In this document: piece by piece, positions 17,571 to 41,845 of the stretch | How positions within the stretch are numbered: position 1 is the stretch's first letter | Layout: every line of letters starts with the position of its first letter | Source: Gossypium raimondii | Taxonomy: Eukaryota; Streptophyta; Magnoliopsida; Malvales; Malvaceae | Assembly (NCBI RefSeq): GCF_025698545.1 | Contig: NC_068571.1 | Location: 47,463,733-47,527,732, forward strand | Reading direction: 5' to 3' | DNA length: 64,000 nt | Translations under genes and position numbers: made by a program | The notes under the pieces: generated by a model | Database searches by the model: none | Told to the model about the DNA's origin: nothing | What the model saw: only the letters and a program-made list of their open reading frames with translations

Positions 17571-17574
17571 ATCT

Positions 17575-18025: not shown

Positions 18026-18029
18026 TCAA

Positions 18030-19440
18030 CTTGAGAGGTATGGTTGTTTATATGAAATGATCATGATGGATGGTTTTCTGGGTTTGCTGTTAAGATATAT
18101 GTGCTAATAATGATTTGAAGGAATTAACTGCCAATTAGAACGCAAGTGAGAGTTAGTAGTGTTAGCTGCTGTTACTTTTCTACATGGGAACGGTTAAAAA
18201 GCAGAACTGATGAGTGGTGCCCCGCCTACTGCTGTAGACCAAAATTTCGTAACTATGAAGCTTCTTGTCGGGATGATGACGACGACGACGTTGAATAAAT
18301 GATATGGCATATGGGGTGGGTGGTGGTTCTACTGCGAAATGGGTGAAAACTATGCACCGGGTGTCTCTGTGCAGTATAAGTGTCTCTTTGATTGCTGAAT
18401 ACTTCAGGAAACATCACAAAATGCTTTACAGACGTTGCTAGATTCATATATATATATGGTATTGAGGTTATTTTGTTATTTTCCATTTCTTTCTCAAGGA
18501 AAAAGCATATGGTAAATGAAGCCTGAATATTCAAAATACATATACTTTTGAATTTTGAATTGATTTAAATATATATAATTAAAATTGTGATCTTTGCTTC
18601 AATGTCTATAATTTTTGTGAATTGAAGTATTGATTTTTATTATGTAAATCTTATTTGTTCATAACGTTATTTTTTGTGAAAAGGGTTGGTATTTGATATG
18701 CTAGCATGGCGATGTTTTAATGAAAATTAGGAAGTAAATTATGTAGAAGTCAGTGGTTCAAGTCTTTATGTCTCAAATTTATGTAAGAATTTTTATGTTA
18801 TTTAATTCAATTATTATTAATTATTAATATAATTCAAACTCCATAAAAATGCAGTAAAACTTGAATAAATATCGGAAGATTTAGAACTTAGAACAAGAAT
18901 TCAAAAAAAGAAGGTTAATTCTAGGAAATTTCTAATAAATCCTTGATTCATATGGTGGCCAATTTACTGACGTGCTTAGTAGGTTGAAATTTTATAGTAT
19001 TAAAAATCTGTAGATTTCACGCCGTATTCTGTAAAAATTTATGATAGATGGGTAATGTGTGTTCGAGCTTGCCCCAGGCTTAAGTTTTCCATATTTCAAG
19101 CTATATATACCTTGACATTGAATATAATTGGTAGAATTTATTTTATTCATGATATTAATTTTGATTATAATATCTGAAATAGAAAGAATATAGCTACATT
19201 CTTTCTTGTGTAAGCCGCGGTTCATGATTTTTTCCATATAAATTTCATGGTATTTTTTAGGATTGGCCACGATTTATAGTTTTTCTATGGCATGTGGGTC
19301 AATCTCTTATGGGGATGCTTTTTTTTCCACCCATAACAAATCTTTTTCTTAATTAAATTACAAATATTTATTTTTTAATATTTTGCTATACTCTTATCGG
19401 GCATGTATTAATCTTTGACTATTTTGAGTAACAGTCTACT
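18030..19440. other. Intergenic DNA between CDKG1 and the 4CLL9 array
   Basis: The first 500 bases are unique and moderately GC-rich, including a gatgatgacgacgacgacg microsatellite near 18270-18290. The remainder is AT-rich. No gene is supported. Confidence 0.35.
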
Positions 19441-19886
19441 AAATATTTTTCTAATATTATTATTTATGTATTTTGTTTTCTTATACTTATTGCACATGAA
19501 TTAATAAACTGATTTTAAAAATATTTTTGGTTTTATTAGTGCAGAACTTACATATATAGTTCTCGTTGATATCTCATTGATAATACACTATAAAGGTACA
19601 TATCTATACTTATATTATGTCATTGAGTTAATGTTAAAGAGTAAACAATTTTGTTAAAAATTATTAAATTTTTATATCCACAGTAAATATACAAAGTAAA
19701 TTGCTTTAACTTTTCTACAGTTCTATATGGTATTAATAAAATAATTTATGGTAAATTTTGAACTCATGATATAATGAAATTTTGATCATTTAGGTAGAAA
19801 GTTTACTTAGCTTTTATATGGGATTCAAATAATTCTATTTGTTGCATAATTAAGTAGGCTTCAATGTTGATTGTTAATATTCGCCG

Positions 19887-22493
19887 CTATAATTTAGATA
19901 AGTCATGAGATATAGAGTGATTAATGAGTTTCCTCCTCCATATCTTCCCTGCCGGAATTTTTGGTATTGAATTTATAAAAGCAACTCGTCGGATTTTCTT
20001 GTATGGTGCGTCAAAAAAGAGGATCCGATTCACAGTTTTGCCTAAAATAAAAGGCAATATATTATTTGTGGTGTTGCTTTAGAAACATGCTTGTTTTGCG
20101 ATGAAATCCATGATTTGTGCCTATGTAATATTACTTCCAGGGTTCTTGACTACATATGCCCTACTTCTTCATCCGGGTACCTGATCAATCGATATGAGAT
20201 TTATGATGGTGAGTTAAAGAACACATGATAATATATATATAAAGAAAGTACGCACGGAATCACCACAGCATCAACGATTTCTGGATGGGAATGAAGTAAA
20301 TGTTCCAATTCAGCTGGAGGGAGCTGCATTTTGATATTCCATACAAGACATTGGTTGTGTTGTCCACAAAGGTTTAGAAACCAACATTGCCAACCAGTTT
20401 CTTCGGCCATGTCATCAATTGAATCAAGAAATATATGTATCAGACACACATACTCAAGTTAGGGGAAGGTAGGAAGGCAAGCATTGGTTCCCCTAGAACG
20501 GAAGTTGCTGCTTTTTATGTCAAAGTTCATGGTGAAATTATAGTTTGACCTCTTAACCATATTAAAATTTTAATTTATTTCTTTTCAAAAACCACAAATA
20601 TCTAATGGTGACATTGCATTTTAACTAACGAAAAAATATATAATTTAATCTCAATTCCTTCAAAAAATAATGACTTGGATTCTAAACTTTAAACCTTAAA
20701 AATCATAAAATCTTAAATTAATATATGACAAAATTATAATTTGATTCTTAAAATATTAGAATTCTAATTTAATTCTTTTCAAATCACAAAGATATAAATT
20801 AATATAAAATAAAATTGTATTTCATTTTTAATAAAATACATAATTGAACCTGGAGCTCCTCTAAATTAATTTCTAGCTTCGCGTTTGAGTTTAAAAAATC
20901 CAAGTTGTAAAGTAAATGATGATTTACCTGGTAAGCTTTGTATTTGATCAATTCCTTCAACCTATCAACAACGAAGAGAAATCATTCATAATCGAAATAA
21001 CAAATGTCACCAGTTTTTAACCACCCTTCTGAGTCCAAGGTTTTTGCTGTTGCCTTCTCATCACTTACATAACCTATATATATATGTATGTATATTCACA
21101 CCATGGAACAATAATAAGCTTCTTGTGAATTTCATGACGAAAAACTAATGATGTGTTTAATTGGTTAAGAAAGTGGAGAGATGAAAAGAGAGTAGAAAAT
21201 AGAAGAAATAAAATAAAATTTTGAGCGTAATTGGTAGTAAAGAAAAGTGATTCATACTAACGCATCAAAATTATCTTTTCAAATTAAAAGATGAGAAAAG
21301 AAAAATAAAAGAGATGCTATATTAATTCAAAATCATGTGTTTTTTAAATATTTTACTTTTTTTTAATTTTACTGAGCAATGGATGAAAGAAAATTATTTT
21401 GTCTTTTAATTTTCCTATCTATACTACCAAACATTTCTATGAGAAAATTATATTTTTTCAATCTTTTCAAATTTCTATGCATTTTACCCTAAAATCTATC
21501 ATTTTACTCATTTATATATGTCTTTGACATATCACATTTATCTTCACCTTTTCTATTTTCAATCAAACTTCCAAAAGGAAACCTTCGACAATTCATTCAT
21601 GTTAATGGAGTGTGAGTTGTATATATATATATATATATATATGTATGACATATTTAATTATTTTATAGACATGAGAAATTCTAGTCAGTACTTATTTTCA
21701 GATATCATGAATGCTTATGCTACAAATTTAGAATAATAATTGGTAATTAATAGGAACGGTAGTAACAAGATATTATTATCATTCGTCCTATTGTTTAGGA
21801 TTAATGAAACAAATTAATGTTGATAAACATTATATTAACATAATTTATATTTATTTAAGTTTGGTATGACTTAAAATACGAGTTTCAATTATGTTAGTAA
21901 ATAATTAATTCAAAACTATTTCAGGTTTTTTCATTTTAAAAAAATATTTTATTTAATATTTAATATTTTTATATATTTTATGCATTAAAATTTGATACAT
22001 AATCATTTTATAATATTTATTTGTTATAAATTACATAATATATAAGAATAACATAATATAAAATATTATTAACTTAGAAAAAGGGTTAAACCGAGCTCGA
22101 GCCTTGAATGTTCTAGCATGAACCCAATCCATATTTTGAACGATTTAATTTTTTTTACTAAAAACTTTTTTTTAGCTTAATATTTTTGTCCAAACGTTCA
22201 CATTTCACACAAACCTCTTTAAATAATCTCTCTTCCCCCTATAAAAAATCTAAATTATTCAGATTTTGTTGTAAGTGTCATATACAAGTGTATTGCCATA
22301 TCCATATGTTTAATATAGATATCGAATAAAAATAAATAAGATAGAACAATACCTTTCATGACTGTTGGCCGTTCTCCTCTCCGCCCAGGAGGCAATGCTT
22401 CACCAGTTTCAGGATCAACTATCTTGCCAACCGAACCGTACCGAGCCCTATTACCCTGGTTGCTCCACTGCCTGTCTCAGTCAGCCCATACCC
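19887..22493 (-). pseudogene. 4CLL9-like pseudogene, exons 2-6 only
   Basis: Remnants of exons 2-6 of a peroxisomal acyl:CoA ligase lie at about 22493-22353, 21073-20928, 20323-20256, about 20188-20095 and about 20010-19887, in the order and phase of the intact copy. Visible lesions: exon 2 is 141 instead of 190 bases; exon 3 has an in-frame TGA where the intact gene has GGG; exon 5 has a 13-base deletion causing a frameshift and an ACA-TAG nonsense change; the exon 6 acceptor AG is lost. Exons 3 and 4 keep their original lengths (146 and 68), and exon 6 still ends in codons for SKL and TAG. No exon 1 is present on this block. It cannot make an active enzyme. Confidence 0.92.
21619..21643. 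repeat. (TA)n microsatellite
   Basis: A run of alternating at, about 24 bases, lies in what was intron 2 of the pseudogene. The matching place in the intact copy (about 28280) has a shorter run. Confidence 0.8.
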
Positions 22494-23439
22494 CTTAACA
22501 CATCAAAATCAACAGTAACAACACTCTTAACATTCACCCAAACAAGATTGTACTGATTTAAATTTGACATCAATCTACTTTTGCACCCAAAAGCCCAGCA
22601 TCTAAAATTTTTTGAACAAAAGTAACATGAAAAACATAGTCAATTACACTCTGATAACTGAATTCGGGTGAATATATACAGAATATGAATATAATCATTA
22701 TTATATATAATTATATATAGGGTTAAATAGTTATTTGAGTCTTGAACTTGACAATTACTCTTATATTGAGGTCTATTTTTTTTATCTTCCTGAACTTGAT
22801 AATTGTTCCTATATTGGGTTGAACTTTTTTTATCCAAATTAATCCTTGAACTTGACAATTGTTCCTATATTAAGGCTTAAACTTTTTTTTCTAAGTTAGT
22901 CCTTGATATTTCCTTGAAAACCCTAAAACTCAGGCCCTAATGTGAGAACAATTGTCTAATTCAGGTCTTAATTTAAAAATACTTACCAAGTTCAAGGACT
23001 AACTTAAAAAAAATTAATCCCAATGTGAGAGTAGTTGAAGGTTAGGCTTCGGTGGTGAATGATGATGAGGAGATGACCAATAAAGTGATTTTAATTTAGT
23101 CCCTATACTTTTATTTCATGAAATTTAATTTTTCTATTTTTAAAATGTTAAAATTCAAATTCTATCGAGTATTTTTTCATTTAAAAATGTCACAACAATA
23201 AATTAATAATTTAACAGTGTTAATAGTTAGACTTGAATTCTAAAATCTGAAAAATAGGACTAAATTTCACTTTGAAAAGTATAATAACGCATATTTTAAC
23301 TTTTAATTTATTATGTTTTTTTTAATACAGGACTGAGGAAATTGAACTTGTTCTCTTTAATTTATCATGTTAAGTCGACAAAGTAGAAAGAGATGTGAAC
23401 AATATTAATGTACTAATGTTCTCTTACTTGAATGTAATA

Positions 23440-23960
23440 TCCGAAAATTACTACAGAAGAGAGTAGGTATACTTGATATAGTAAAATAAGGAAATAAAGT
23501 GACAAAAGGAAAATTTTGATTATGTCAACATTGGGAAGTATATTATGACATATTAATGCAAGAAAGGACTAATTCACAAAAGTGAGAAAAGTTTTGTTGG
23601 CTAAGAGTAAATATTTAAAATTTGAGAGGTTAAAGTGTAAATATGGAAAAATTGAAGGATCAATTGTGCAAATATTTTAAGGGTGGAATGATATAGAAAC
23701 TAAGGAAAATGGATGAATTAGGACCAAATTGAATAAGTGAAGAATTATGAGGGACTAAATCGTAATTTTACCAAATTGAGTGATGACTCAAGGATGGAAT
23801 TTTAAAAGATCATGAAGGGCAAAATAGTCAATTAGAAGGAGAGAGAAATCTAGAAGGCAATGATAATGTTGGAGATATTTTAGATTATTAGTTTATAATA
23901 TTTGATTTGAATTTTTTAATGATATTTTATTATTTTATTTAGTATATATATATACGTGGA
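23440..23960. mobile_element. Probable degenerate LTR-retrotransposon fragment
   Basis: The style (tgtaatatccgaaaattac, aaataaagtgacaaaagg, gcaagaaaggactaa, gagggactaaatcgtaa) resembles LTRs common in cotton genomes as I remember them. It begins just where homology between the two 4CLL9 blocks stops. No internal coding region or second LTR is visible. Confidence 0.4.
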
Positions 23961-25390
23961 AAGAAAGAAAGAAAGAATTTAATATGTATATGTTATTTTT
24001 ATTTTCGTTACTGAAATGTGATGTGTTATTATACTAATATTGCTACCTTAAGGAGGTCAAAGATAAGGAGGATAGTGATTCCAAGGCTAAGGAAATTCCA
24101 ATTGCTGCTGTCGGATGCATCTACACATCAACCTCTACTATTTTTGTGGACCATCAACATATATAATGGATGGAGATTAATTTCTGGAATATACCCATAT
24201 AGTAACCTATTTGAATTTTCCTTCTTTCGTATGTAGTATTGATCTCTGTTTTGGGCTACAATTTTCATCAAAAGAGGTCATGCTCACAACAACCAAGGTT
24301 TGATAGACTAAAACATGACCGAGTCTACACCAATCAAATGCATAATGAAGCCAAACATGCAATTGGGGCGGGTATAGGGAGCGCATATAAGAAAAAAGAA
24401 GCAAGTTTAGGAGATTATAAAATAAAGTGGTTGGAAATTAGACTTAATTTAAATGCGATACAATCATAATTGTGGATTTAAAGTTCAGCACAACTGATGA
24501 TACGATTCCTTTAGCAGATCAAAAGTTTAATATAATCCTACTTCTAGTCGTAGCAACACTTTAGTGATAATTATAAAGACTTACACATGTTTCAAATATT
24601 AGAGATAGGAACCAATATGGCCAACACGTTTATGCCGCATCAATAGAAGAATATTGAATTAAATGTGTTGATGAGAGATATCAACAAAAGAAGAGATAAG
24701 AAAAAGGAGGTAGTGTATCAAAGGAGGCCGATTGTTGTGAAGGTCAAGAGGAAGAGGATGATTGCTGTGAAGGTAACAGAGTATGGGTGTAAAGATTAAG
24801 TGTTTAGGGTTGCTAATGGATGTCATCGTTATGGAGGGTATTTATATGGAAGGCCCTCTTGTTTGGTAGTGGTGATATGGCAAGTTGTTATCATTGGATT
24901 ATCATCATGGAGTGCATGGGAAATGTAATTGGTGAGACTCATTCTCATATTCCTTTCAAACAGTATGAAGTTGTTATGTTTAAGTGGGTTCTAGTGATCC
25001 CTTAAAAAAGTCTTTACATTTGGAGAAATATTTATATTAAAAAGCGGGTGACTTGGAGGATGAGGAGTTGGGATGGTTGTTCATCTAGTGACTAGTTGAA
25101 CGTTGCAAGGTAGGGGAGAATAGCAATTGGGGAAGAACTATATATAGAATTGAAGATGAAGGGGGTTGGTTGGTCGGTTTGAATATTTATCTTGACATTG
25201 ACTAAGTATTGATGCTTGGTTAAAATCCTATAAATTGGATATGATGTTTGGACATAGATAGGATCTTGACATTGGTTGGCATCGAGATCCGATCAAAATA
25301 TCATTACAATAATTTTATTATAATTTAAAAGAACGAATATTTATTTTGCATGTTATTAAGTGTATGTAAAAAAATATTCATATAAATCTA
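23960..25390. other. Unidentified intergenic DNA
   Basis: It contains an (aaag)n microsatellite (23961-23979). The segment about 24030-25110 is less AT-rich and has short open frames with no recognisable product. It might be a decayed transposon. Confidence 0.3.
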
Positions 25391-25399
25391 GATAAAACT

Positions 25400-25800
25400 A
25401 TGTATATTGATGTAATACTTACAATTTTGTTAAAAATACCATAAAATTATATTTTGACGCCTTAAAATATTTATAATTTAATTTGGAACATTAAAAATAT
25501 TTGTTTTCAAATTTATTTATATATTTAATGTGATCTTCAAATTTAATTAAAAAAAGAAAAGAAATTACGCTCAACCTTGATTTAATTTTTATAAAATAAC
25601 ATATACAGCTAATAATTTTAAATTTTAATTATTATTATTAATATTATTTTAGTCCAAACGTAATCTAAATGATTTAATAATTTTCATTTTTAGTAGTTAT
25701 ATTTTTAATCGTTAGATAAAGTGCTACGCAGTGAACATAAAGCCAACAAAATAAATATAAAAAACATAAAAGGTAAAAATATGTTATTAGTCCTTATATT
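25400..25800. repeat. Duplicated block X, 3' of intact 4CLL9 (matches about 37670-37990)
   Basis: Shared text includes tttggaacattaaaa, agtccaa..taatctaaatgatttaataattttc, aatcgttaga.aaagtgctacg and gaacataaagccaa, in the same order in both places. It also includes the left end of a MITE (ggtaaaaatatgttattagtcc). Confidence 0.8.
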
Positions 25801-26549
25801 TGTATGTAATTTGAGATGCTTTCAATATTTCTTCCACAACATTTATTATTATTAATTAGTTCTTTAATTTTAAAAATGCCTTGGCATGGAAATTTGATTA
25901 ATATAATTTTAATATATTAAAAGACATTCGCTTTGGTTTCATCTCATGAACATTTTATTTCTTTCAAAAACATTATTCAAAATTTTAAATAATATTATAG
26001 GTTAATATTTAGTACATCGACAGTATATTTTTTATTCTCTGAATAAATTTTAAAATTGTCATGTATTTTGTTTTTTTTAATATTTATTTTAATAGAAAAT
26101 TTGTGAACTCATTGAACTTTCTCGTTAAATCTAAAAATTTTACAAGCAACGTATATTATTTATATGTTTTGTTTTCTTATATTTATTGCATATGAATCAT
26201 TAAATTTTATGGTTTTAGAAATGTTTTAATTTTATTAGTGCAAAACTTACATATATAGTTCTCATTGGTAATACCTGATAAAATATTTTTATAAAATGTA
26301 TGTTTATACTTATATTAAGTCATTGAGTTAATGTATGAGTCAACAATTTAGTTAAAATATTATTAAAATATTTTTATATAAAAATAAACGAGTTACCATT
26401 AAAGCTTTTTCACGATTTTATAAATAATAAAATAATTCATAATAAAATTTTAACTCATGATAAAATAAATTTTTTATTTAGATAAATCAAAGTCCAGTGT
26501 CAATATTCGCCACTATAATAAGATTATATGTGCTCATATATATATGGTT

Positions 26550-27696
26550 CTATAATTTAGATAAACCATTAGATAGAGAATGATTAACGAGTTCCCTCCT
26601 TAAGATCTTCCCTGCCGGAGTTTTCGGTATTGAATTTATAAAAACAACTCGTCGGATCTTCTTGTGCGGTGCAACCTGCAAATGTTGAAAAATCAGCTCC
26701 GGCATCACAGTTTTGCCTAAAGAAAAAAGAAACATAATATTTGTGGTGGTGTTTTAGAAACATGCTTGTTTTGCAATGAAATCCATGACTTGTGCCTCTG
26801 TAATGTTACTTCCAGGGTTCCTGACTACATATGCCATGGGAATCTGTCCCGCTTCTTCATTCGGGTACCTGATCAATCAATATAAGATTTATGATGTTGA
26901 GTTAAAGAACACATGATAATATATATATATATAAAGTACGTACGGAATCACCGCAGCATCAACGATTTCTGGATGGGAGAGAAGTAAATGTTCCAATTCA
27001 GCTGGAGGGACCTGCATTTTGGTTTTCCATACAATGACGTTGATTGTATTGTCCAAAAAGGTTTAAAAACCAACAAGTCCAACCAATGTCTTTGTCATTT
27101 CTCGTCGGTTTTTAATCAATTGAAGGGAGGAAGGCAAGCACTGACTCCCCTAAAATGGGAGTTGCTATTTTTTATCCCAAAATTCATAAAATCCTAGATG
27201 GTAAAATTATAATTTCATCTTTTAAAAATGCTAAAATTTTAATTCAGGGTAAAATTGTATTTTAACTATTGAAAAAAATGTAATTTAATCTCGAGTCCTT
27301 TGAAAAAAATTAATGAGTCGGACTCTAAACCTTGAGCCCAAAATTCATAAAATCCTAAATTAATATATAGTAAAATTATTATTTTGTCCCTAAAATAATA
27401 AAATTTTGATTTAATCCTTTTCAAAATCATAAATTATAAACAGAAATTGCATTTCAACTTTTAATAAAAAAACCTCGAGCTCTTCTAAATTAATTTCTAG
27501 TTTCCCCCTTGAGGTTAAGTAACCTAAGCTGTAAAGTAAATGATGATTTACCTGATAGGCTTTGTATTTGATCAATTCTTTCAACCTATCAACAACATAG
27601 AGAAACCCTTCAGAATCAAAATAACAAATGTCACCAGTTTTTAACCACCCTTCTGAGTCCAAGGTTTCTGCTGTTGCCTTCTCATCACCTACATAA

Positions 27697-27737
<41 letters not shown>

Positions 27738-30700
27738 AATAATAAGCTTTTATGAATTTCATAAAATGTCGAAGGATTAAGAGTGTGTTTAATTGAGTAA
27801 AAAGTAAAGAGATGAAAGGAGAGAGTGGAAAAGTAGAATAAATAAAATAATTCTGAGTATACTTAGTAGCAAAGAAAAGTGAGAGGAAAATAAATAAGAG
27901 ATACGATTATTTTCCGTCATCTGCATCAAAATTAATTCTTCCAAATTGAAATGACGATAGAAGAAAAATAAAGAAGAATGTTATATTAATTCAAAATCAT
28001 TCATTTGTTATATGCTTTATTTCCTTTACTTTTATTTTTCAAATTTACTGAGTAATAGTTGAAAAGAAAATTATTGTCTTTTAATGTTTTCAATAATTAC
28101 TACCACGCATACTTATGAAAATGGAAAATTATATTTTCAATCTTTTCAATTTTCTATACATTGGTAAAGCCTAAAATCTATGTCATTTTGCTCATTTATA
28201 ATTGGCTTTGACGTATCACATTTATGTTAGCCTTCTTCGACAATTCATTCATGTTAATGGAGTGTGAGTTGTATATTTATATATATATATATGACACATT
28301 TAATTATTTTATAGACATGAGTAATTCTAGTCAGGTACTTATTTTCAAATATCAAGAATGCTTATGCTACAAAATTAGAATAGTTATTCGTAATTAAAAG
28401 GAACGATAGTGACAAGATATTATTATCAATCGTCCTTTAATAGGAAAATTTAGTGCCAACTCAAAATATAAAAGTATTCTTGAGCTGGATTTAAGCATAA
28501 TATTAAAATAATTTATATTTATCTTAAGTCTAGTACGATTCAAAATACAAGCATAAAATTTTATCCAATCCTAATTATATTTGTAAATAATTAAACTAAA
28601 ACTCATTTTAAGTCCCGCCATATTATTTTTTAAAAGATATATTTATATTATTTTTATTTAATATTTAATAATTTTATATATTTTCATGTATTAAAATTTG
28701 ATATATAATCACTTTATAATTTTTATTTGTTATAAATTACATAATATATAAAAATAACATAATATAAAACCTTAAAAATTAAAAAAAAAATGAGTCCAGC
28801 TCGAGTCTTGAATGTTCAAGCTTGATCCTAGTCCATATTTTATAAGATCTAAATTTTTTTGTTAAAACTCAATTTTCAAACTTAATAATTTTACTCAAAT
28901 CTTCTAAATTACGAATGGAACTTTATGCTTGAGAATGAATAAACAGATCTACTCACACACCACAAACAAAACTTAGAATTGATAGGAACAAATTACTGCT
29001 AACTCACATAGCACAAACAAGATTCTCTTTATGATTCAAACCGATCTGAATTTTTGAAGTGAACACCCAATACTAGTAGACCAATGAGGGAAGTTCCTCT
29101 TCAGTCAACTATCAGCCATACATAATTAAATAAACTTATAGGCCAAGGGCCCAAGGCTTTTAAAAAGAAAAAAGAAAACTAACTCCCTATTAGAAGCCGG
29201 TAAATTAATGTGGGTTTCAATTCCCAAGCATACAATTCTGGCAGCACATTTACCTCTTTAAACAATCTCTCTTTCCCCCTATGATAAATCTAAATTATTC
29301 AGATTTTGTTGTAAGTTTCATATACAAGTGTATTGCCATATCCATATATTTAACTAAGACTTTATATAGATATCGAATAAAAATAAATAAGATAGAACGG
29401 TACCTTTCATGACTGTTGGCCCTCTCAACCATAGTTCTCCTCTCCGCCCAGGAGGCAATGCTTCACCAGTTTCAGGATCAACTATCTTGCCTTCCATGTT
29501 TTCAGCAAGGCGGCCAACCGAACCGTACTGAGCTGCCTCCTCAGGCCCTATTACACTGGTTGCTCCGCCACTGGTCTCAGTCAGCCCATACCCCTTAGCA
29601 CATCAAAATTAACAGTAACAATACTCTTTAACATTCACCCAAATAAGATTGTACTGATTTAAATTTGACATCAATCTACTTTTGCACCCAAAAGCCCAAC
29701 ATCTAAAATTTTTTGAACGAAAGTAACATGAAAAGCATAGACAATTACACTCTATTAACTGAATTCGGGTGGATATATACCGAATATGAATATAATCATT
29801 ATTATATATAGTTATATATAGGGTTAAATAGGTATTTGAGTCTGAACTTGACAATTACTTTTATATTGAGGCCTATTTATTTTATCTTCTTGAACTTGAT
29901 AATTATTCCTGTATTGAGTTAAAAAATTTTTGTTCAAATTAATCCCTAAACGACAATTTTTCTTGTATTAAAGCTTGAATTTTTTTTTCTAAATTAATCC
30001 CTAATATTTCCTTAGAAACCGTAAAGCTTAGACGCTAGGGAACACAATTATTTAGTTCAGGCCTTAGTTTAAAAATACCTACCAACTTCAAGGATTAACT
30101 TGAAAAAAATTAACCCCAACGTGAGAGTAGTTTAGGCCTAGATAGCGAATAATATGACGAGGAGATGATCAATTAAGTGATTTTAATTTAGGTTAAAATG
30201 TGGCACTAAGTTCTTTTACTTTTTAAAATTTAGGAATTTAGATCTTATATTATATTTTTATTATATAGAATTCAATTCTTCTAACTTTTAAATTTAAAAT
30301 TAAGATTCAACTATTAAAATTATTAAATTTTTGTTATATGATTATGTGTGTTTTTTCATTTAAAAAATATTACAACAATAAATTTAGCAGACTTAAATTC
30401 TGAAATATAAAGAGTAAGATTAAATTTCATTAGATGGAGTACAGGGAGGTTTAACTTTTTATTTATTATTTTTGAATACAGGACTGAGGAAACTGAAGTT
30501 GGTTCTCTTTAATTTATTATGTTAAGCCGGCAACGTAGAAAGAGATGTGAACAGTAATGCTGTTTCCGCCATGTGAACTTTTTAACTTTTTCAAGTCAAT
30601 GTGATTTGCAGTGAGTTTTAATTAGGCTTTTTTATTATTTTTTTGAACTGCTTTTTCATCAGATTTATCGACGGATTCAATTTCAGGGTTTAATTATCCC

Positions 30701-33301
30701 TTCAGTCCCTGTGCTCTTCAGACTCTTGAAATTTAATCTCTGTATTAATCCCTTTATTTGGTCTGATTTTGAAAAATAAATTTCAGTTGATAACATGTAA
30801 ATAGATTTCTATTAAATGTTAAATTTGAATATGTTGTATTTGATATTCAAATAAATATTTAATTTAAAAATTAAAATTTAATTGATAAGATTATCAATTG
30901 ATTTCTATCAATTTTAAATATATGCTATCAAATAAAGTTTAATTTTTAAATCAAATAATATGCTAATCACTTGAAATTTAATAAAAGATTAACTTTAAAA
31001 CATTTGAAGAGCACATAAATTGAGGGTATAATTAGAACACAATGATGTCTCAATTTTTATCAATCAGAAGGTAAAAGTTTTTGGGAACAAATTTAATTTC
31101 TGTTGAAATGAGACCGACTCTTTATAAAGATGCAAGGCTCAATCCGACAAGGTGCTCACACTTTGTGAATCTTGCTTTTGGCTTAAGCTTTTAACAAAGT
31201 TTAGAGCCAAAATGTGGCTCGACCCGTGGACAATACCGACTTGTTAAGAAGCTCATCGGCTCTGAACATATATACTTGGAAGACTTTTCTGGAAGAAGTC
31301 GGCCTCACCTCAACATTATTAATAAATTATAGTTTATGTACCAAATCAAAACTTTTGAAAAATTGCAAGTGAATTTTAAGATCTAATTTTATTATTTTTA
31401 TTATTTTCATTTTTTGGTATTTTTTATAGCACAGTCAAGCAAATATTTAAAAACCATGCTAATTATTTTGACTGAATCCATTATTAAGTAGCATCAATTT
31501 AATTATAGATTGATAAAAAAACGTTTAAGAAATACTATAAAAATTTAAAATAAAAATATACGAATGTATGCACTTAATAAGTACATATTAAAATATATTC
31601 TCTTTTAACATTTCTCAAAATATTTTTTTATTTAATTTTGTTCTATCCAACTTAACTTCTTTTCATTTTCTATCCGAGCTTTGACCAATACAAAGTATAT
31701 GGCTGAACCTTTATGATTGAATCTTAATTAACATCAATTAAATTAGAAATAAATAAAATATTTCAAATTTACTATTTAATTTTAAATTATAACTATTCAT
31801 TTAAATTTTATCTATTTTTAAGAAATATTTTCACATTTTACAAATTACAACTTTTATTTACATTTTCATGTTCTACTTCTATCATCTTCTAGTTTTTAAA
31901 ATATTTTTGTATATATAAAATAAAAATATAACAATAAATTTATTTCGTTTATAACTTTGTCATTTGCTTTTTATTATTTTTTAGGTAAATTTCACGCTAA
32001 ACTTTTTAAAAGGATTGAGTTATTTTTTTAACAAAAATATTGATTGAATAAATTTTAAACATACGCATGATAATTCACGTGTTTTATTATAAATTTTTTA
32101 ATATTTTTATAAAATTTAAATCTTTTACTATTATATAAATTTTTGTATAAAATTGTTATGAACTTTCATATTGTTTTTTTTTTTTATATATTACCTTAAT
32201 CCTTGGTTAAAAAGAAACCATTACGTGGTAATTATTAAAACATAAACATAAATAATTAGAAAATACCTGGACCAATAACACACCGGGGAACTTCTCATTG
32301 AACCGCATAGCAATGTCCTTCCCAAGCGGCGCGCCGCCGCAGCCAAGCCTTTGAAGCGAACTCAAGTCGTATTTTCTTGTCAAGTCCGATTTAACAAACG
32401 CCACCACAAGCGGCGGCGACACCGGCATGCCTGTAACCTTGTACTTCTCAACTGCTCTTAACATTTCTTCGAAATCAAACCTCTCCACCAAAACGACTGT
32501 ATTACCTAACAGAACCACCGCCAACAACATAAAGAAACCAAACACGTGGAACAAAGGCACCGTGAAAAACGTCACCGACCGCGGCGGCTTCTCGTTACCT
32601 TGGCCTTGGTTCGTATTTAGGTGATGAATCACCGTCATCATTGCGATTAGGTTTCGGTGAGTCATCATCACGCCTTTGACTCGGCCGGTGGTTCCTGAAG
32701 AATACAATATCGCAGCAGTGTCGGACTGGTTAACCTTTACACTTTTAGTGATGCCGTTAACGATATTGGACTGAGTTAACAAGGAGAGAAACTCGGGCGA
32801 GTCGAGGAGAACAGTTCCGTGTTTAAGAGAAGGAATTTTATGAGAGGTTTCTGAAGTAACGAAGGCAACAACTGGTTTACTGAGTTGGATCTGGTGAGCG
32901 ATTTCCGAGTTGGAACTAAGAGGATTTGCAGGAGAAACGACGATTCCTAACGACAACAAAGCGAAGTAAACCACGGGGATATGAATCGATGGCGGTGAGA
33001 GGATGAAAGCGACGTCGTTTTGGGAAAGAGAGTAACGTTGTTGCAGAGAGTAAGTAAGGGAGCGGACTTGAGAAACGAATTGGGAGTAAGATAGCGTTTT
33101 GCCGGTGGTTGTGTTGACGGAGAAAGTGGTGGCGCCGTCGGTGAAAGTACTGTTGAAAATGGAGAAACAAAATTCGGCGGCGGAAAGCGGTTGACTGATT
33201 GGCGGCAAAGGGACAGACGGTCTAAGGCAACTATAAATTCCGGTTTGGCGACAAAATCCGGTTTTCGGATCCATTAAACGGTTTGGATACCTTTCCGCCA
33301 T
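26550..33301 (-). CDS. 4CLL9: 4-coumarate:CoA ligase-like 9, peroxisomal acyl/OPC-8:0-CoA ligase (six exons, 555 aa)
   Basis: It is an ANL-superfamily adenylate-forming enzyme that makes acyl-AMP and then acyl-CoA. The 4CLL9 clade is implicated in activating jasmonate precursors or fatty acids in peroxisomes. Exons are 33301-32267, 29593-29404, 27697-27552, 27011-26944, 26868-26766 and 26675-26550; all phases agree and give 555 codons. Motifs: AMP loop [10 protein letters not shown] 201-210, GYGLTE 346-351, GWLKTGD 425-431, hinge region [10 protein letters not shown] 445-454, catalytic K537 in [10 protein letters not shown]. The C-terminus is SKL (PTS1). Substrate is unproven. Oddities: intron 5 (26765-26676) must use a GC donor (CAA|GCATGT) to stay in frame, and a (TA)n tract abuts the exon 3 acceptor. 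It is the only complete copy of a three-member local array. Confidence 0.94.
27698..27734. repeat. (TA)n microsatellite abutting the 4CLL9 exon 3 acceptor
   Basis: About 17 TA units run straight into the tatag acceptor, in place of a T-rich tract. The pseudogene copy at 21073 has a shorter, interrupted run. Confidence 0.85.
28915..29255. other. Insertion of about 340 bp in 4CLL9 intron 2
   Basis: Comparison with the pseudogene block (about 22195-22225) shows this stretch only in the intact copy. It is less AT-rich, non-coding, and carries repeated words such as ctcacacaccacaaacaa / ctcacatagcacaaacaa. It could be a SINE or other insertion, or a deletion in the other copy. Confidence 0.5.
30560..32266. 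other. Rest of 4CLL9 intron 1
   Basis: AT-rich intron sequence not present in the pseudogene block. I see no gene or clear repeat. Confidence 0.4.
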
Positions 33302-33341
33302 TGAAATTGAAATGAAAGCTGACTCGAAATTCTTTTGGGAG

Positions 33342-33349
33342 ATTTATAT
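33342..33349 (-). promoter_or_regulatory. TATA box of 4CLL9
   Basis: On the minus strand this reads tataaat, about 45 bases before the ATG, so the leader would be short (about 15 bases). The same motif and spacing are kept upstream of the exon-1-only copy (39335-39343). Confidence 0.5.
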
Positions 33350-33518
33350 TAGGATTAAGTGTATGTTGATGCAATGATTTTGAAATAGTACGGATTCAAA
33401 ATTGGCTGAAACAGGCTATTTGTGTTTTGGTTTTAATGTGTTATAATTTTTTATATTTTTCTTATATTTGAAATTTACTTTCTATTTTTATTCTAAGAAA
33501 TTTAGTATTTATTAATTC

Positions 33519-33903
33519 AGGTTCCACGGCAAGCTCATGAGCTTATTATTTTAGATCGGAATAAGTTGATAGGATCTCCTCTTACGCCTTCGAGTCTCTC
33601 CCATGTATCGACATGGGGGCGCAAAAAAGAAAGAGAGGGATGAAGTCTCTCTTGCTTTTGGCATAGCGGGCCCCCAGTGAGTGGCCCGCGTGCCAGGTTA
33701 TTAGTTTAGTGATAAAATGCGTCTCTAATAATTGTGTCATTGTGCCTAGACTGAGGGCTCTCAGCCATATAGATAGTTCAATGTGCTCATCAACGCCTAA
33801 CCTTGAGATGTGAATCATCCAAGGCACATTAGCATGTTGTACTTCTACTGTTCGAACCGGTGTTTAAAATTAAACTTCTCCTCATGAGGATAGATAGGGC
33901 GTT
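33519..33903 (+). pseudogene. Nuclear plastid insertion: rrn16-trnI spacer, trnI-GAU 5' exon and intron start
   Basis: From memory this matches the plastid inverted-repeat region: spacer (caagctcatgagcttatta, acatgggggcg, gcatagcgggcccccagtg), then the 5' half of trnI-GAU at about 33695-33731, then the group II intron start (agggctctcagccatat, gttcaatgtgctcatca, catccaaggcacattagcat). Most differences from the plastid sequence are C-to-T or G-to-A, typical of methylated nuclear plastid DNA. It is not a functional tRNA, since the stem positions are mutated and the 3' exon is absent. Confidence 0.87.
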
Positions 33904-34481
33904 AAAATTATTCTATTAAATTTAAGTTGGTTACAATGTCAATTTTTGTATATGACTACTAGGTAAGTAACTTTTTTTATTTTAAAATGTCACACCAGTA
34001 AATTTAATAGAAGATTTTTAATTGTGTTCACAATTGAACTTAAATTTTAAAATTTAAAAGTTGATAAATTAAATTTCTTAATATAAATGTAAAAATATTA
34101 AATTTTATTTATGAAAAGTAGAAATACTTAAATGAATATTTTAACCTTTATGTTTTTCTTTTGATTTGGGTTTTGATTGCTATTTACCTATGTAATTTGA
34201 TTCTTTCTATACTATTTATTACCAATATTTGAATGTAATTGAGGTGAAAATTATTTAATTAAATTTATTATGGTTTAAGTTAAAATATATTTTAATTATC
34301 ATTTTATTTATTATAATAAATTATTTTGATTATAATTGTACGAATGTATTAATTATAATTTTAATCCGTTTATAATTATAATGATGATGATGATAACTTA
34401 AAAGATAATTTTAGACGTAATACAAAAAAATATATATATTTAGTAATTGTAAGTACCGCAAAAAGGTTCATTTTAATTTTT

Positions 34482-35060
34482 GGGTAAACTATGAAAGTAG
34501 TCAATTTTGTTTTCATCACGTTATATTTAGTCATTTTTGTTTAAAATGTTACGTTTTAGCCACCTGTTATAACATTTTAGTTACTAAGCGTTAATTGCTA
34601 TTAACGGTGTAATGGTAAGCTGACATGGCATGTTAAATCATCATTTCAAACAAAAAATTTTAAGTTAAATTGTACAATTGATCCCCATATTTTTTCGTTT
34701 AGAGCACTTTATTTTTTTCTTTTATGTTATTTTAATTTTTTTCATTATTTTTCATTCTATTCTGCTTTTCCCTCTATTTTCCTTTATTCTTCATCTCTTT
34801 TAACGTAAAAGAAAAAAATAAATTACTTAAAACGAAAAAAAATATAAGGATCAATTGTATAATTCAACTTAAAATTCTCGTTTGAAATGATGAATTAACG
34901 TGCCACATTAGCTTACCGTTACACCGTTAACAACGATTAATGCTCAGTGACAAAAATGTTATAACATGATAACGTAAGTGACTAAAACGTAACATTTCAA
35001 ACATAAGTGACTAAAATGTAACTTGAGAGAAACAAAAGTAACTATTTTAATAGTTTAACC
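34482..35060. repeat. Long-TIR MITE, family M3, copy 1
   Basis: The element is almost fully palindromic. The left arm begins gggtaaactatgaaagtagt, and the right arm reads back as ggttaaactattaaaatagt. Inside are paired motifs around taacggtgtaa.ggtaagct and cgtttgaaatgatga. The second copy is 42607-43222. It is non-coding. Confidence 0.8.
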
Positions 35061-35185
35061 TAATCTTTGATTAAAAAACGTAAATTGATTTAATGTTTCT
35101 AAATAGAAAAAAGGATAAATTAATAAAGATTGATATAAAAAATATGGTTTTGGTTGAAAGGGTAAAGTTGAAATAGTAGATTAGA

Positions 35186-35531
35186 TAAAAGTACTATAAA
35201 GGCCCTTGTACTGAGAGTTTGATTGCATTTTGCCCCCTCTACCCAAAAAAATAGACAAATTAGTCTTTGTACGTTAGATTAAAGAGTAAATTGATTCTTC
35301 CATTAAAAGTTTCATTCATTTTTGCTATTAAAAATTGGTCTCTATATGTCAGCATGAAATACATATGGCATGCCACGTGTCATTATCCGATTATTCTGTC
35401 AACCACATCAATTTTTAACAGTATAAATAGATAAATTTTTTTTTAAAAAAAGAACCAATTTATCGATTTTTTGAATAAGGGGACAAAATACAATTTGACT
35501 CCTAGTACAAAGGCCTCCATGATACTTTTAC
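35186..35531. repeat. Palindromic MITE, family M1, copy 3
   Basis: It starts taaaagtactataaaggccc and ends tccatgatacttttac. Its centre carries a G-box core (gccacgtgtc, about 35372-35381), so copies near genes could bring in a bZIP/bHLH site. Confidence 0.65.
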
Positions 35532-35539
35532 TGTGAAGA

Positions 35540-37965
35540 TTATAATATTTTGGGTTCAAATTTCATAATTTACTTTATAAATATAAATAATATTTGTTAC
35601 TTTATTAAAAAATAGTTTTTAGTAATTTTATAATTGAATTAATTCTAATTAATGTGTAGCACAAATTCAGTCAAACTCTCTAGTATAAATGATATAATTC
35701 AAAAACTAAAATATATTTAGTAATCAAATGAGAAAATGTGATTAAATATATTTTAGTTGTTAGAAATCTACTACTTGGATGAAAAAATGTAAAACATACT
35801 GGATTATGGCAAGACCATGAATTTTTTTATACCAAATATATTTATAGAAAAGTTAAATTAAAAATAAATGTAAGATTGTGATTTTAGACATCATGGTCGC
35901 CTTGTATAAATTTAATCCTAATAATATTTGAACTCAAGTTAATTAAGTGATAAATAATTAACTTTTATCATTGTAACTAAGATAAATAATTAAAATTGCT
36001 GCCATATGACCTTTTATGTTCGCATTGTTTGCACTAATCAAAAACTCTTATTTTGCTTCTTTTCTACAGTTGAGTTTTATTTTTTATGAAATAACTTTGG
36101 ACGTCACGAATATGTGAACTAAAATTAAAATGATTTTTTTTCGATCTCTGACGCTAATTGTCAGATTGACTTGGATCTAAGACATGGCGATGGCTATTGA
36201 CCATCATATTGATTACTAAATCATCGCTTAGAACTTGCTAACCGAATTTAAAAGAAAACCTTAGTTGTTTAACGATTTAAATCAAAGTTTTCAAACAATT
36301 AGATGATTCAAATGAAAATTTTTAAATAATTCAATGGTATTTGATAAATTTTTAAAATTGGATAATAAAACATAAACTTCTTTAGTATCATTTATTTATA
36401 TTAGTACTGACCGTTTCTTTAAATTATTAATTAAGAGGCAAGGGATTGGCCGGTTTTCTGGACGCTAATGCCTGTCATGGTACGTGGGCATGGGAATGGT
36501 CGCATATATATAAGGTGGGTGTAAACGAGAAGCCTACAAACATCCGAATTTTTTTTTGAAAAAAAACAAAAATCCGGACATTTTAATCTAAGAATCTTAT
36601 GGTTCTAATTTATCTGTTTTAATCTTCAACTAGTATAGTTCTGAGTTAATTAGTTTCGGACTAAATTATAAAATTACAATTTAAAATTTACAATATGTTC
36701 TATTTATATATTTAGAATTTAGTTTTTATACTTTTATTCAATTTCAATTATTAACGGTGTTAAAATTTTTCTATTAAATTTATTGGCGTGACATTCTAAA
36801 ATTAAAAAAGAAAACCATAGTCACATGACAAAAAAATAGTATCGTAATGATCCTAAATTAACAGAGAATTTTAATCGTGTTAACGATTCCTAAAATTCGT
36901 GCAAACATTTTAATCAAAATAAAGTATATATGTTAATTAATAATATATATACTCCTTCCCTTTTCGTATTCACTTTTTACCTCTTCCAATACCATAATCC
37001 CCTCAATTACTCTGAAAATTTACCATGACGCTTTGTAAGTATTTATTTTTAAAATTATTTATAAAAGTTGAAAATGTTATTTTCATTTTATTTTATCATG
37101 CATTATACCTTATTTTTATTGTGATTGTTGACATGTTATATGTCAGTGTATTGATTAGGATGTTAAAAAAGTTTATATATATACTTCAGTATTATAGTGA
37201 ATTAGTGTTTTGATTCTACTATGAAATTTTGATGTTGTTATTTTCATTATCAAAATGTTGTAATATGTTGTTTTATTGACATTTTAAAATGTTATGTGTT
37301 ATTATACTAATTATGATGTTAGTATTTTCCTAATATTTTCATTACTTTTTTTTTTGGAACATCAACGTTAATATAATGAATGGAGATTGAGATTCAATCA
37401 AAATTTTCAGGGTAGTTAATTTGCATTTTAAAAGGCACATTTAAGAATTTATTTTCCAATATTTTCATAAAAGAACAATGTTTTAATAAAAATCTCATTG
37501 TAAATAAATATTTAAGAAAGTTATATATATAAGATTTTGTCACTCTCGTGTGAGTCAAATATACTTTATATTATTTTTAAAAATTTATTCAATCATGAAA
37601 TAAATGGAGTGATAATGAATTTGTATTTTAAAATTTTTGAATGATTGGATTCTTGATTTATAATTTATAATTTTTATTTAAAAATATATAAAAATACCAT
37701 TACAATTATATTATTATAATGCTTTAAAATATTTATAGTGTAATTTGGAACATTAAAATTTTTGTTTTAAATTTATTTATTTAATGAGATTGTTAAATTT
37801 AATTTAAAAATAAATTTTAAATTTTAATTATTATGGTTATTATTTTAGTCCAACTTAATCTAAATGATTTAATAATTTTCATTTTTGTTGTTATATTTTT
37901 AATCGTTAGAGAAAGTGCTACGTACTGAACATAAAGCCAATAAATAAACAAACAAGTAAATAAAA
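35540..37965. other. AT-rich intergenic DNA with repeat fragments
   Basis: An M2-family repeat lies at about 36010-36350 (aattgtcagattgacttgga, tcatcgcttagaacttgcta). A decayed 'ttagtcc' MITE lies near 36700-36920. The second copy of block X is at about 37670-37965. No gene is seen. Confidence 0.45.
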
Positions 37966-38249
37966 GGTTAAAATATGTTATTAGTCCTTATATTTGTAAC
38001 AATTTTAATATTTAATTTCTAAACTTTAAATGTTAAAATTCAAAATTTTATTTTTTCAATTCAAAATTTTAGTTTAATTATTATAACCATAGATAATTTC
38101 TATCAAAATTTGTCAATTTATATATGTCGTATCAAATGAGGCAAGCCAATTTTAAAATTGAGAAATTTTGATACAAAGTATTTAAAATTTTAATGATTAG
38201 GTTGACATCTTCAAATAAAAAATAGAAGGACTAAGAGCATATTTTAACC
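37966..38249. mobile_element. MITE with 8-bp target duplication, beside the truncated 4CLL9 copy
   Basis: The ends are inverted: ggttaaaatatg at the left and catattttaacc at the right. Both sides are flanked by aaataaaa (37958-37965 and 38250-38257). An 8-bp duplication suggests a hAT-type element, by convention of that superfamily. Related 'ttaaaatatg...ttagtcc' elements occur elsewhere in the window, for example at 49971-50301. Confidence 0.8.
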
Positions 38250-39297
38250 AAATAAAAGGTAGCTGCGTCAATAGCACATTGGGGAACTTCTTCTTGAATC
38301 GCTGAGCCATTTCCTCTCCAAGCGACGCGCCACCGCAGCCAAGTCTTTGAAGCGAGCTTAAATTGTATTTTTTTGTCAAATCCGATTTAACAAACGCCAC
38401 CACAACCGGCGGCGACACTGGCATGCCTGTAACCTTGTACTTTTCAACTGCTCTTAGCATTTCCTCGAAATCAAATCTCTCTACCAAAACCACTGTACTC
38501 GCTGACAAAACCATCCCCAACAACATAAAGAAACCGAAAACGTGGAACAAAGGCAGCGTGAAAAACGTCACCGGTCGCCGCGGCGGCTTATCGTTATCTT
38601 TGCCTTGATTCATGTTATAGCGATGAATAATCGCCATAATTCCGATTAGGTTTCGGTGAGTCACCATCACGCCTTTAACTCGGCCGGTGGTTCCAGAAGA
38701 ATACAATATCGCTGCCATGTCGGACTGGTTTACCTTCACGCTTTTCATGATGTTATCGACATTGGACTGAGTTAACATGGAGAGAAACTCGGGCGAGTCG
38801 AGGAGTATGTTTCCGTGTTTAAGAGAAGGGATTTTATGGAAGGTTTTTGAAGTAGCGAAGGCAATAACGGATTTACTGAGTTGGATCTGGTGAGCGATTT
38901 CCGAGTTGGAACTGAGTGGATTTGAGGGAGAAACGATGATCCCCAAAGACAGCAAAGCGAAGTAAACAACGGGAATATGAATCGAAGGCGGTGAGACAAC
39001 GAAAGCGACGTCGTTTTGGGAAAGAGAGTAACGCTGCTGTAGAGAATAAGCTAGGGAACGTACTTGAGAAACGAATTGAGAGTAAGATAGCGATTCGCCG
39101 GCGATTTCATTGACGACGAAAGCGGTGGAGCCGTCGGTGGAAGTCCGATATAAAAGGGAGAGACAAAATTCGGCGACGGAAAGCGGTTGATTGATAGGCG
39201 GCAAAGGGAGGGGCGGTCTAAGGCTACTGTAAGTTCCGGTTTGGTGACTGAATCCGGTTTTCGGATCCATTAAACGTTTGGGATCCGTTTCCGCCAT
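38197..39297 (-). pseudogene. 4CLL9-like copy reduced to exon 1
   Basis: Codons 1-345 (39297-38263) align with exon 1 of the intact gene end to end, without any stop. They include the AMP-binding loop [10 protein letters not shown] and the start [15 protein letters not shown]. At the exon end the intact gene has CAG|GTATTT, whereas this copy has CAGCTACC, so the splice donor is gone. The frame runs on for 21 codons through a MITE and stops at 38197. Exons 2-6 are missing; the DNA next to exon 1 is block X, which in the intact copy lies 3' of exon 6, so an internal deletion is likely. It lacks GYGLTE, the hinge, the catalytic Lys and PTS1. The TATA box is kept, so a truncated transcript is possible. 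Confidence 0.88.
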
Positions 39298-39334
39298 GGA
39301 AATTGAGATGTAAGCTGACTGTAACTTTATGGGG

Positions 39335-39343
39335 ATTTATATT
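39335..39343 (-). promoter_or_regulatory. TATA box of the exon-1-only 4CLL9 copy
   Basis: Same motif and distance to ATG as in the intact copy (33342-33349). Confidence 0.45.
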
Positions 39344-39348
39344 AGGAT

Positions 39349-39369
39349 TTGACAGTTGACTGTTGACAG
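39349..39369. promoter_or_regulatory. Three W-box cores at 7-bp spacing
   Basis: TTGAC occurs at 39349, 39356 and 39363 (ttgacag, ttgactg, ttgacag), right upstream of the TATA box of the truncated copy. TTGAC is the core of WRKY sites. The intact copy lacks this array at the same place. Confidence 0.45.
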
Positions 39370-39379
39370 TGACTTTGAT

Positions 39380-40698
39380 GTAATTTATGACGTGCCCTAC
39401 CAATTTTAGATTATTGATTTTAATGTAACGGCGTTGAAAATAGTTTTTCTAGGTTAAATTCTACTTTAGTCCCTGTACTTTGTGAAAGTTATGAATTTAA
39501 TTTTTATACTTTAATTTGATTAATTTAGTCCCTGTACTTTTTGAATTGGTCAATTTTAGTCCCTTTACTTTTGAATTTTAAAATTTTAGCTTCAATTAAT
39601 AGTTATGCATTATATGTACAATTATAGATTTAGTTCATATTCTCCAATTGCATCATTTTAAAATCCTTATATTTTTGAATTTTGAAATTTCAATATTGAT
39701 AGAAATGATAGACATTAATCTATTACATATATGATAATATGTTTATCGTATCAGATTTTAGAAATAGAAGAACTTAACTTAATGGATTTAAGAGTTATCA
39801 TTTGATAGTGATTGTTATTTCAAATTTTAAAAGTACGAACTAATAAAAAATTTAACCTTTTTTATAATATCCTTTTCATTTTGTTCACTAATTTTTATAT
39901 ATATTTAATTTTATCATTAACATTTTCAATTTTGATATTTTGTTCTCTCAATTGCTAAGTCATTAATGAAATTTTCTTTAAGGGTGTAAATCTTTGTCGT
40001 TAATGAATGTTGATATGGCCTTTTTCGATTGGTATAATAATAAATTTGATTTATATATTTTACGCATTTTATTAATTTGATTTTAATTCTAGAAAATCAA
40101 TAAATATTTAAATATTATTAAATATTATAAAAATCATAAAAATGTTATAAAGAATAAGAACCAAATTTTAAAAAAACTATAAAATCATAAAATCATAAAA
40201 TTAAAAGAAATGATAATTCATACATTTGACTATTTTAAAATCAAAATCAAATTGACAAAATATGTAAATTGTGAAGACCAAATCTATGGTTATACTAATA
40301 AAAAAGGACACATTAGCGTTTGATTAACTATTTAATGGACAAGTGACTAAAATATAGAATGTTGAAAATATTAGTGATGAAATTGAAATTTTTGTAATTA
40401 GATGGCCCAAAATAAAAATGCTCTAATAATTAGATAACTACGTTTGTAGACTTTACATTTTTTTATAATTTCTACCTATACTTGTATTAAGTCATTAATT
40501 AAGTTGGTGTCACGAGTCAATTAAATATCAACTCAATTGAGAAATTACTAAAGTACCTTTATACGCAAAGCAAGTTATATTATGAGAACAATGTTTGTCT
40601 AATATATGTATATATATATTTATATAAAAACAATAAAAATTCAATCATATTAAGATTTTGAACTCGTGACACAATGGATTTTAATTATTTAACTTTAT
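39380..40698. other. AT-rich intergenic DNA
   Basis: It contains a decayed repeat of the 'agtccctgtacttt' style (about 39460-39860). I see no gene. Confidence 0.4.
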
Positions 40699-41845
40699 CA
40701 GGATTTTTTACAAAAATATTACAAAAAAATAAAAAAATACCAAAATATAATAAACTTTTTTTTATTTACCAAAATAATACCAAAAAAAGACAGCTAATGG
40801 AGGGCCTGCCACAGACGGCACCCCCCTTTATTCGTATTTCAGCCCTTTGTTCGTTTTTTTTCCTAGATTTTATTACTTTAAAAAAAACACTATTTTCTAA
40901 TTTATTATTTTACATTGTTTTAGTACATTATGCTTGAAATGTATTCATTTAGTGTGTTTTTTATTGAATGTAATAAAATTCGGGGAAAAAATACGAACAA
41001 ATGACCGAAACAATGGTTTTTTAAAATTTATTTAAAACACACACTAAATGAATACATTTCAAACATAATGTACTAAAATAATGTAAAATAATAAAATTAG
41101 AAAATATTATATTTTTAAAAGTAATAAAATCCAGGAAAAAAATACGAATAAAATATTGAAATACGAACACGTTGGTGCCGCCTCTCATGTTGTTAATACG
41201 AGGATAAATGTTCAATTTTGTTTATATTTTAGTTTTTCAAATATGCTTAGAGTCCTAGAGATACGTGCTATTTTATTGCTCTATTATTTGTAGCCTTCAT
41301 TTTCACTACTAATTTAAAATAATTACAAATTTCTTTTATCATTAATATTTATTTTACAATTTATGTTCAAAATTCATAATTATCTCTCTTAATCATATTA
41401 TCTTCAATATTTCAGTGTTGTTTCTCGAAATGTAATTTACTTCAACTAATGCCTTGAATATTTACTATTACTTCATTAAAGGCTTGAAATGTATTCATTT
41501 ATTGTGTTTTTAAATAAATTTAAAAAAACTCTTATTTCGGCCCTTTGTTCGTATTTTTTCCTCAAATTTTATTACTTTCAATAAAAAACACACTAAATGA
41601 ATACATTTCAAGCATAATGTACTAAAATAATATAAAATAATAAATTAGAAAATAGTATTTTTTTAAAAGTAATAAAATCCGGAAAAAAAATACGAACAAA
41701 TGGCTGAAATACGAACAAAGGGGGGTGCCACCTGTGGCAGTGGCACCATTCAGCCGTCTTTTTTTGTATTATTTTGGTAAATAATCTTTTTTGTATATTA
41801 TTTTAGTATTTTTATTTTTTTGTAATATTTTGGTAAAAAACCCTG
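40699..41845. mobile_element. Large fold-back element with inverted arms of 300-400 bp
   Basis: The left end, caggattttttac, pairs with the right end, which reads back as cagggttttttac. The arms stay alignable for more than 300 bases through taccaaaataatac, gacagctaatgg/gacggctgaatgg, cttgaaatgtattcatttag and aaaaatacgaacaaa. A third, inverted copy of part of the arm lies at about 41030-41190. No coding capacity or clear target duplication is seen. Confidence 0.85.

Follow-up and report, generated by a model that had tools for sequence, protein, structure and literature searches.

In arrays of the UGT1A type, variable first exons precede a single, common set of later exons. Other described systems close to the locus considered here are, according to the relevant passages of the respective reports, AT3-1/AT3-2 of Solanaceae, a tandem acyl-metabolism gene and its pseudogene neighbour with evidence of exchange between the two (PMC6343889), and HvARM1, a partial duplicate of HvPUB15 with a reported function (PMC6092874). 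Corresponding passages on the 4-coumarate-CoA ligase (4CL) family report two tandem pairs among the 4CL genes of Gossypium hirsutum (PMC7092558), name 4CLL9 in a cotton expression study (PMC11774880), and describe the family in pear (PMC5083928). Here we analyze a stretch of 64,000 nt from Gossypium raimondii (NC_068571.1, positions 47,463,733 to 47,527,732 of the forward strand; "the window"), in which an intact six-exon gene for a 4CL-type acyl-CoA ligase (M) is located between a copy reduced to exon 1 (R) and a pseudogene reduced to exons 2-6 (L). We propose that the locus is probably a decayed head-to-tail array of such ligase genes, in which R and L would have been truncated independently.

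The locus is similar to AT3-1/AT3-2 in that a tandem gene of acyl metabolism is accompanied by a pseudogene neighbour and by signs of exchange, and differs in the presence of two remnants with complementary exons, one of which has a miniature inverted-repeat transposable element (MITE) at its broken end. R is a partial gene copy like HvARM1; whereas the latter has a reported function, R is known from its sequence alone and lacks a splice donor. Two first exons (of R and M) ahead of a single set of later exons recall the UGT1A arrays, but a GT donor is missing from R, and M, which starts with an exon of its own, appears to be complete. The cotton 4CL-like (class III) genes belong to the same enzyme family, with tandem pairs known; the passages of PMC7092558 that deal with them describe no truncated copies, and the word "pseudogene" is absent from its main text. 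No description of this locus was found among the titles and abstract openings of the matches listed in a literature search; this does not prove that the locus is unpublished.

Self-comparison of the window, exon mapping and a tblastn search of all 64 kb with the M protein (E up to 10) place 4CL-coding sequence in three locations only, namely R (39297-38263; exon mapping and tblastn), M (33301-26550; exon mapping and open spliced frame) and L (22493-19887; exon alignment to M), and the tblastn search revealed no further piece. All three are encoded on the minus strand, with offsets of 6.0 kb between M and R and 7.1 kb between M and L; these are paralogous segments arranged head-to-tail on a single strand, as in a tandem duplicate array. 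In the self-comparison the exon 1 pair of M and R is recovered with E=0.0 and 1248 bits, and the homology between L and M as two blocks, each with E=0.0 (1828 and 1062 bits). The anatomy given in the first-pass annotation, an intact gene between an exon-1-only and an exons-2-6 copy, is thereby confirmed, and its bounds, 19887 and 39297, correspond to the stop codon of L and the ATG of R. Its additional statement that the flanking pieces make up exactly one more gene holds for the exons and fails for the nucleotide sequence, in which part of intron 1 is unmatched. The composition of the window is A+T-rich and plant-like (A 22534 and T 22612 of 64000).

Exon mapping of M yielded exons at 33301-32267, 29593-29404, 27697-27552, 27011-26944, 26868-26766 and 26675-26550, whose spliced frame is open over 556 codons including the stop, i.e. 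555 amino acids with SKL at the C-terminus. Introns 1-4 have GT donors, intron 5 has a GC donor, and all five acceptors are AG. Both Pfam domains characteristic of the 4CL/acyl-CoA synthetase family are found within this single frame (AMP-binding, 280.3 bits with a cut-off of 29.9; AMP-binding_C, 67.3 bits with a cut-off of 24.5), and the closest solved relatives are chains of 4-coumarate-CoA ligase 2 (4CL2; best E 5.8e-106). M is the sole copy at the locus able to encode a whole enzyme. The SKL terminus suggests a peroxisomal product and would presumably fit a peroxisomal 4CL-like protein, without identifying member 9 of the group, an assignment for which the closest relationship to At5g63380 among 4CL-like proteins of plants would count. 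The GC-AG form of intron 5 is common to M (26754-26765) and L (at the matching place near 20090), hence the GC donor is either older than the M-L split or shared through conversion. Intron 1 of M harbors an inverted-repeat element at 30691-31034, with 49-nt arms that are 76% complementary. A G+C-rich island at 33540-33895 starts about 240 nt before the M ATG, near the end of the promoter homology with R (33520), and reaches 57% G+C in a 100-nt window between flanks of 12-30%; neither of its two open frames has a Pfam match above the cut-off, Rfam reports no match in it, and our guess is that it is possibly an inserted piece of organelle-like or other foreign origin.

The exons of L, as read off the alignment to M, are located at approximately 22493-22353, 21073-20928, 20323-20256, 20180-20091 and 20012-19887. 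Of the 633 positions in M exons 2-6, 571 align without gaps, and identical positions amount to 134 of 141 in exon 2 and 389 of 430 in exons 3-6. L is a pseudogene: its frame is interrupted by a TGA in exon 3 (20984-20982) and a TAG in exon 5 (20123-20121), as well as by two frameshifting 13-nt deletions, one in exon 2 and one in exon 5, while a 12-nt deletion has hit the acceptor of exon 6; exon 2 also carries in-frame deletions of 24 and 12 nt. An exon 1 belonging to L was not found anywhere in the window by tblastn with the M protein. Homology to M continues upstream into the 3' part of intron 1 (22494-23411, minus strand, corresponding to M 30563-29594) and stops at 23411; downstream it covers a 3' flank (19344-19886, minus strand, corresponding to M 26549-26035) with a Kimura two-parameter distance (K80) of 0.41. 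The whole alignment, 23411-19344 against M 30563-26035, has one break, at about 350 nt extra in M. In the 2 kb upstream of L there are three open frames, none with a Pfam match above the cut-off.

R, in turn, comprises 345 codons in an open frame, with 78.6% protein identity to M in tblastn and a score of 184 bits against Pfam AMP-binding, compared with 193 bits for exon 1 of M. Its alignment with M extends from about 220-230 nt upstream of the ATG (5' flank 39298-39528, minus strand, homologous to M 33520-33302; K80 0.54, confidence interval (CI) 0.43-0.70) to the end of exon 1, where M reads CAG/GTATT and R reads CAG/CTACC, i.e. has no GT donor. Neither stop nor frameshift is present in the 1035 nt; what R lacks is the donor and exons 2-6. 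Such a clean frame is suggestive of a later death, and is no proof of function.

It could also mean that R is still in use, expressed as an N-terminal protein, or that until recently it was spliced to exons 2-6 of M in the manner of UGT1A, as an alternative first exon, a reading that we consider hardly probable. With branch lengths of 0.05 and 0.10, simulations of neutral drift left R without a stop with probabilities of 0.125 and 0.017, the changes in R avoid sites shared with 4CL2 (10/91 versus 52/215, Fisher p 0.008), and the Pfam score of R is close to that of exon 1 of M. Against this, the pairwise Ka/Ks of R versus M (0.34) equals that of the dead L (0.35), L exhibits a similar, non-significant bias at the 4CL2-shared sites (9/100 versus 13/73, p 0.11), R ends before the remainder of the AMP-binding domain and has no AMP-binding_C, and, unlike in a UGT1A-like array with a functional donor on each first exon, it has CT where M has GT. 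We infer that R is probably without function.

The lesion loads of the remnants are unequal: four lesions disable the coding sequence of L, whose exons correspond to 633 nt of M, and none that of R over 1035 nt (simple Poisson split, p 0.021), or five versus one (p 0.032) if the acceptor deletion of L and the missing donor of R are counted, in-frame indels (two in L exon 2, two between M and R) being omitted from these counts. Thus, the decay of the two remnants was not synchronous.

The borders of homology also differ. The similarity between L and M begins 970 nt (M numbering) upstream of exon 2, and that between R and M stops where exon 1 ends, or close to this point, which leaves the 5' part of M intron 1 (30564-32266, minus strand, 1.70 kb) with no convincing counterpart beside R or L. 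Against the 2 kb upstream of L this part scored below the mean of random segments in all four schemes (e.g. 89.6 versus 148.7; 60 random segments). These borders bear on the two explanations offered by the first-pass annotation, the insertion of a whole copy into intron 1 of an older gene, or a triplication with losses of opposite halves. According to the former, M would be a diverged paralogue that landed in intron 1 of a gene composed of R exon 1 and L exons 2-6, with a short block (X) duplicated at its edges; the observed order on one strand, R exon 1, X, M, X, L exons 2-6, agrees with it. The end of R and the end of L should then abut within intron 1; on the L side 1.70 kb are unmatched, on the R side there is a marginal, MITE-bound match (see below), and nesting would require that the 5' part of the intron was lost or replaced. 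Because of this unmatched intron segment, the absence of a GT donor in R and the unequal decay of L and R, we favor independent losses, as in the second of the two explanations, and regard nesting as doubtful, though it keeps some probability.

Several other sources were considered for the sequences next to R. The sequence that separates R exon 1 from X was rejected as a leftover of the M 3' flank (1, 32, 0 and 15 of 150 random segments scored as high in the four schemes); its score also fell inside the range of shuffled sequences, and the MITE makes up most of it. Its comparison with the 2 kb upstream of L (46, 56, 57 and 0 of 150 as high; above all 100 shuffles in a separate test) was left unused, as was that of M intron 1 with the sequence past the right copy of X (3 and 34 of 200 random segments as high).

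The MITE is located 13 nt past R exon 1 (37966-38249, minus strand). It is a short element of 284 bp, with 30-bp terminal inverted repeats (27/30 complementary) and a target site duplication, the 8-bp direct repeat TTTTATTT at 37958-37965 and 38250-38257. The right copy of block X (37689-37998, minus strand) begins with 33 nt of the MITE end, and the left copy (25431-25804, minus strand), located between M and L, starts with 33 nt matching this end (32/33), followed by nearly identical target bases (TTTTATGT versus TTTTATTT). The similarity of the two copies is real (E 1e-63 in the self-comparison). If at most three mismatches are allowed, the 30-nt MITE end is found three times in the window, namely at both ends of the element beside R and in the left X, and a shorter pattern yields one additional weaker match at 50280-50301. 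Since the MITE end and, nearly, the target bases are common to both copies of X, the two copies most likely go back to a single MITE insertion and were separated afterwards.

The proximity of X to both the intact and the exon-1 copy had been taken to favor an internal deletion in the latter. This is not supported: besides the shared MITE end, the copies of X are less diverged (K80 0.136, CI 0.094-0.185) than the noncoding sequences of L and M outside the exon 2 area (0.251, CI 0.230-0.275), and no X was detected in the L 3' flank (17500-19343 tested; 76, 51, 68 and 92 of 150 random segments as high). For the same reasons, i.e. that L has the 3' flank of M without X and that X is less diverged, we rejected X as a sequence that followed each ancestral copy downstream. 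A deletion that stopped just short of the MITE-bearing X beside R stays conceivable. For nesting, the low divergence of X relative to M-R and M-L looks as if it dated the insertion, the borders of X appear sharp, and the best alignments of X to M fall near the expected diagonal at the start of intron 1; yet this similarity is not significant (20 and 31 of 200 random segments as high for the right copy, 15 and 26 of 200 for the left, in two schemes), and X was rejected as a homolog of the intron 1 start. In a comparison of X with the M 3' flank just before the left X the schemes disagree (0/200 versus 42/200 as high), and it was not used.

Divergence between M and R in exon 1, calculated with the method of Nei and Gojobori (NG86), corresponds to Ks 0.32 (CI 0.24-0.41) and Ka 0.11, with Ks 0.27 by both YN00 and maximum likelihood. 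For M and L, exons 3-6 give an NG86 Ks of 0.216 (CI 0.12-0.35) and 0.15-0.17 by three other methods. The M-R point estimate is higher in all four methods; the CI of the difference is -0.05 to 0.25 (P(<=0) 0.094), and fourfold sites differ at 26/139 versus 3/46 (p 0.061). With exon 2 included the contrast becomes significant (P 0.014 for Ks; 26/139 versus 4/74 fourfold sites, p 0.007), but the significance is gone once this exon, part of a low-divergence tract, is left out, and we therefore rejected the conclusion that M-R is clearly older. The data suggest, without showing it, that the M-R split is moderately older, and greatly differing ages of the truncated pieces, which the first-pass annotation would have counted against its reading, are not clearly seen. 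As the difference in Ks is non-significant without the likely conversion tract, the ages do not decide between the models. The K80 of the M-R 5' flank was not used for dating, because that of the L-M 3' flank is likewise high.

The tract in question, M 29904-28889 (minus strand) around exon 2, is unusually similar to L, with 25 differences at 454 noncoding positions versus 19% overall, and its segment score of 34.5 exceeds the maximum of 14.3 in 1000 permutations of noncoding positions. Noncoding K80 is 0.085 within M 29982-29245, as against the value of 0.251 given above. Gene conversion between M and L is the likely cause of this pattern.

The ages also touch the possibility that a full second gene never existed and that R and L originated by two separate partial tandem duplications, one of the promoter with exon 1 and the other of exons 2-6 with the 3' flank. 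Two such events explain why tblastn detects no trace of the missing halves of R and L, and a somewhat older M-R split would fit. On the other hand, the Ks values of R and L are not significantly different outside the tract, and a Ka/Ks of 0.31-0.35 between L and M is hard to reconcile with a copy promoterless from birth, unless conversion or constraint in the M lineage is responsible. We consider this origin unlikely.

A number of observations weigh against the decayed array that we prefer. The exon complement of R and L is exact, which independent losses would produce only by coincidence; the M-R and M-L Ks intervals overlap, as is also expected from (and counts in favor of) one outer gene, although the higher M-R estimates in all four methods speak against it; and the copies of X are direct repeats flanking M, which might be the trace of an insertion between R and L. 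Moreover, the 256 nt that follow R exon 1 show a marginal match to M intron 1 (31073-30791): 0, 2, 0 and 0 of 150 random segments scored as high in the four schemes, with a score of 126.4 versus a random maximum of 105.5 in one scheme and 63 (2/150 as high) in another. This match is far below a positive control of similar length (332), and 244 of the 256 nt of R belong to the MITE. A permissive alignment extends the similarity of R and M as far as M 31692, i.e. into intron 1, and when the MITE is removed the two agree at 18 of the 30 nt that directly follow exon 1, so R may keep some of intron 1 with a mutated donor; direct tests of homology in this stretch were not significant. The fourfold-site result and the tests of X pull in opposite directions, and the odds among the readings are unaltered by them.

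For the decayed array the following order of events may be envisaged. R and L would be remnants of at least one further gene copy, cut at different ends by separate events, in which R lost everything beyond exon 1, and L lost exon 1 together with the 5' part of intron 1. The MITE would have inserted beside R, after which the short block with the MITE end would have reached its two present locations, one next to R and the other between M and L, and an exchange of sequence around exon 2 probably took place between the latter two genes. A combined history, in which a diverged paralogue inserted into intron 1 of its relative at the time recorded by X, R with the outer promoter was then spliced to the inner exons 2-6 as a UGT1A-like first exon and remained under selection until it lost its donor, and L decayed at once, seems to us very improbable.

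Other elements of the window include two matches to the Rfam family MIR7502 (246-390 and 35301-35445), both above the gathering score, and nothing else in Rfam matches. The name MIR7502 is mainly met in work on cotton (7 of the 8 titles listed). Each is detected on both strands, which means that the sequence is palindromic, and our guess is that this "microRNA" may be a MITE. Self-comparison also revealed an inverted-repeat element at 34479-35063 with a related copy about 8 kb away (42623-43229), and a long inverted repeat (40699-41062 and 41484-41845) with arms 88% identical. An open frame on the minus strand at 44325-44999 belongs to a subtilase (Pfam Peptidase_S8 and fn3_6).

If nesting were true after all, it would represent an uncommon way for plants to acquire alternative first exons. 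The locus is a worked example of the fact that an intact gene may be flanked by complementary fragments without one gene having been split by another, and that breakpoints at the nucleotide level, transposon ends and tracts of low divergence need to be read before nesting is inferred.

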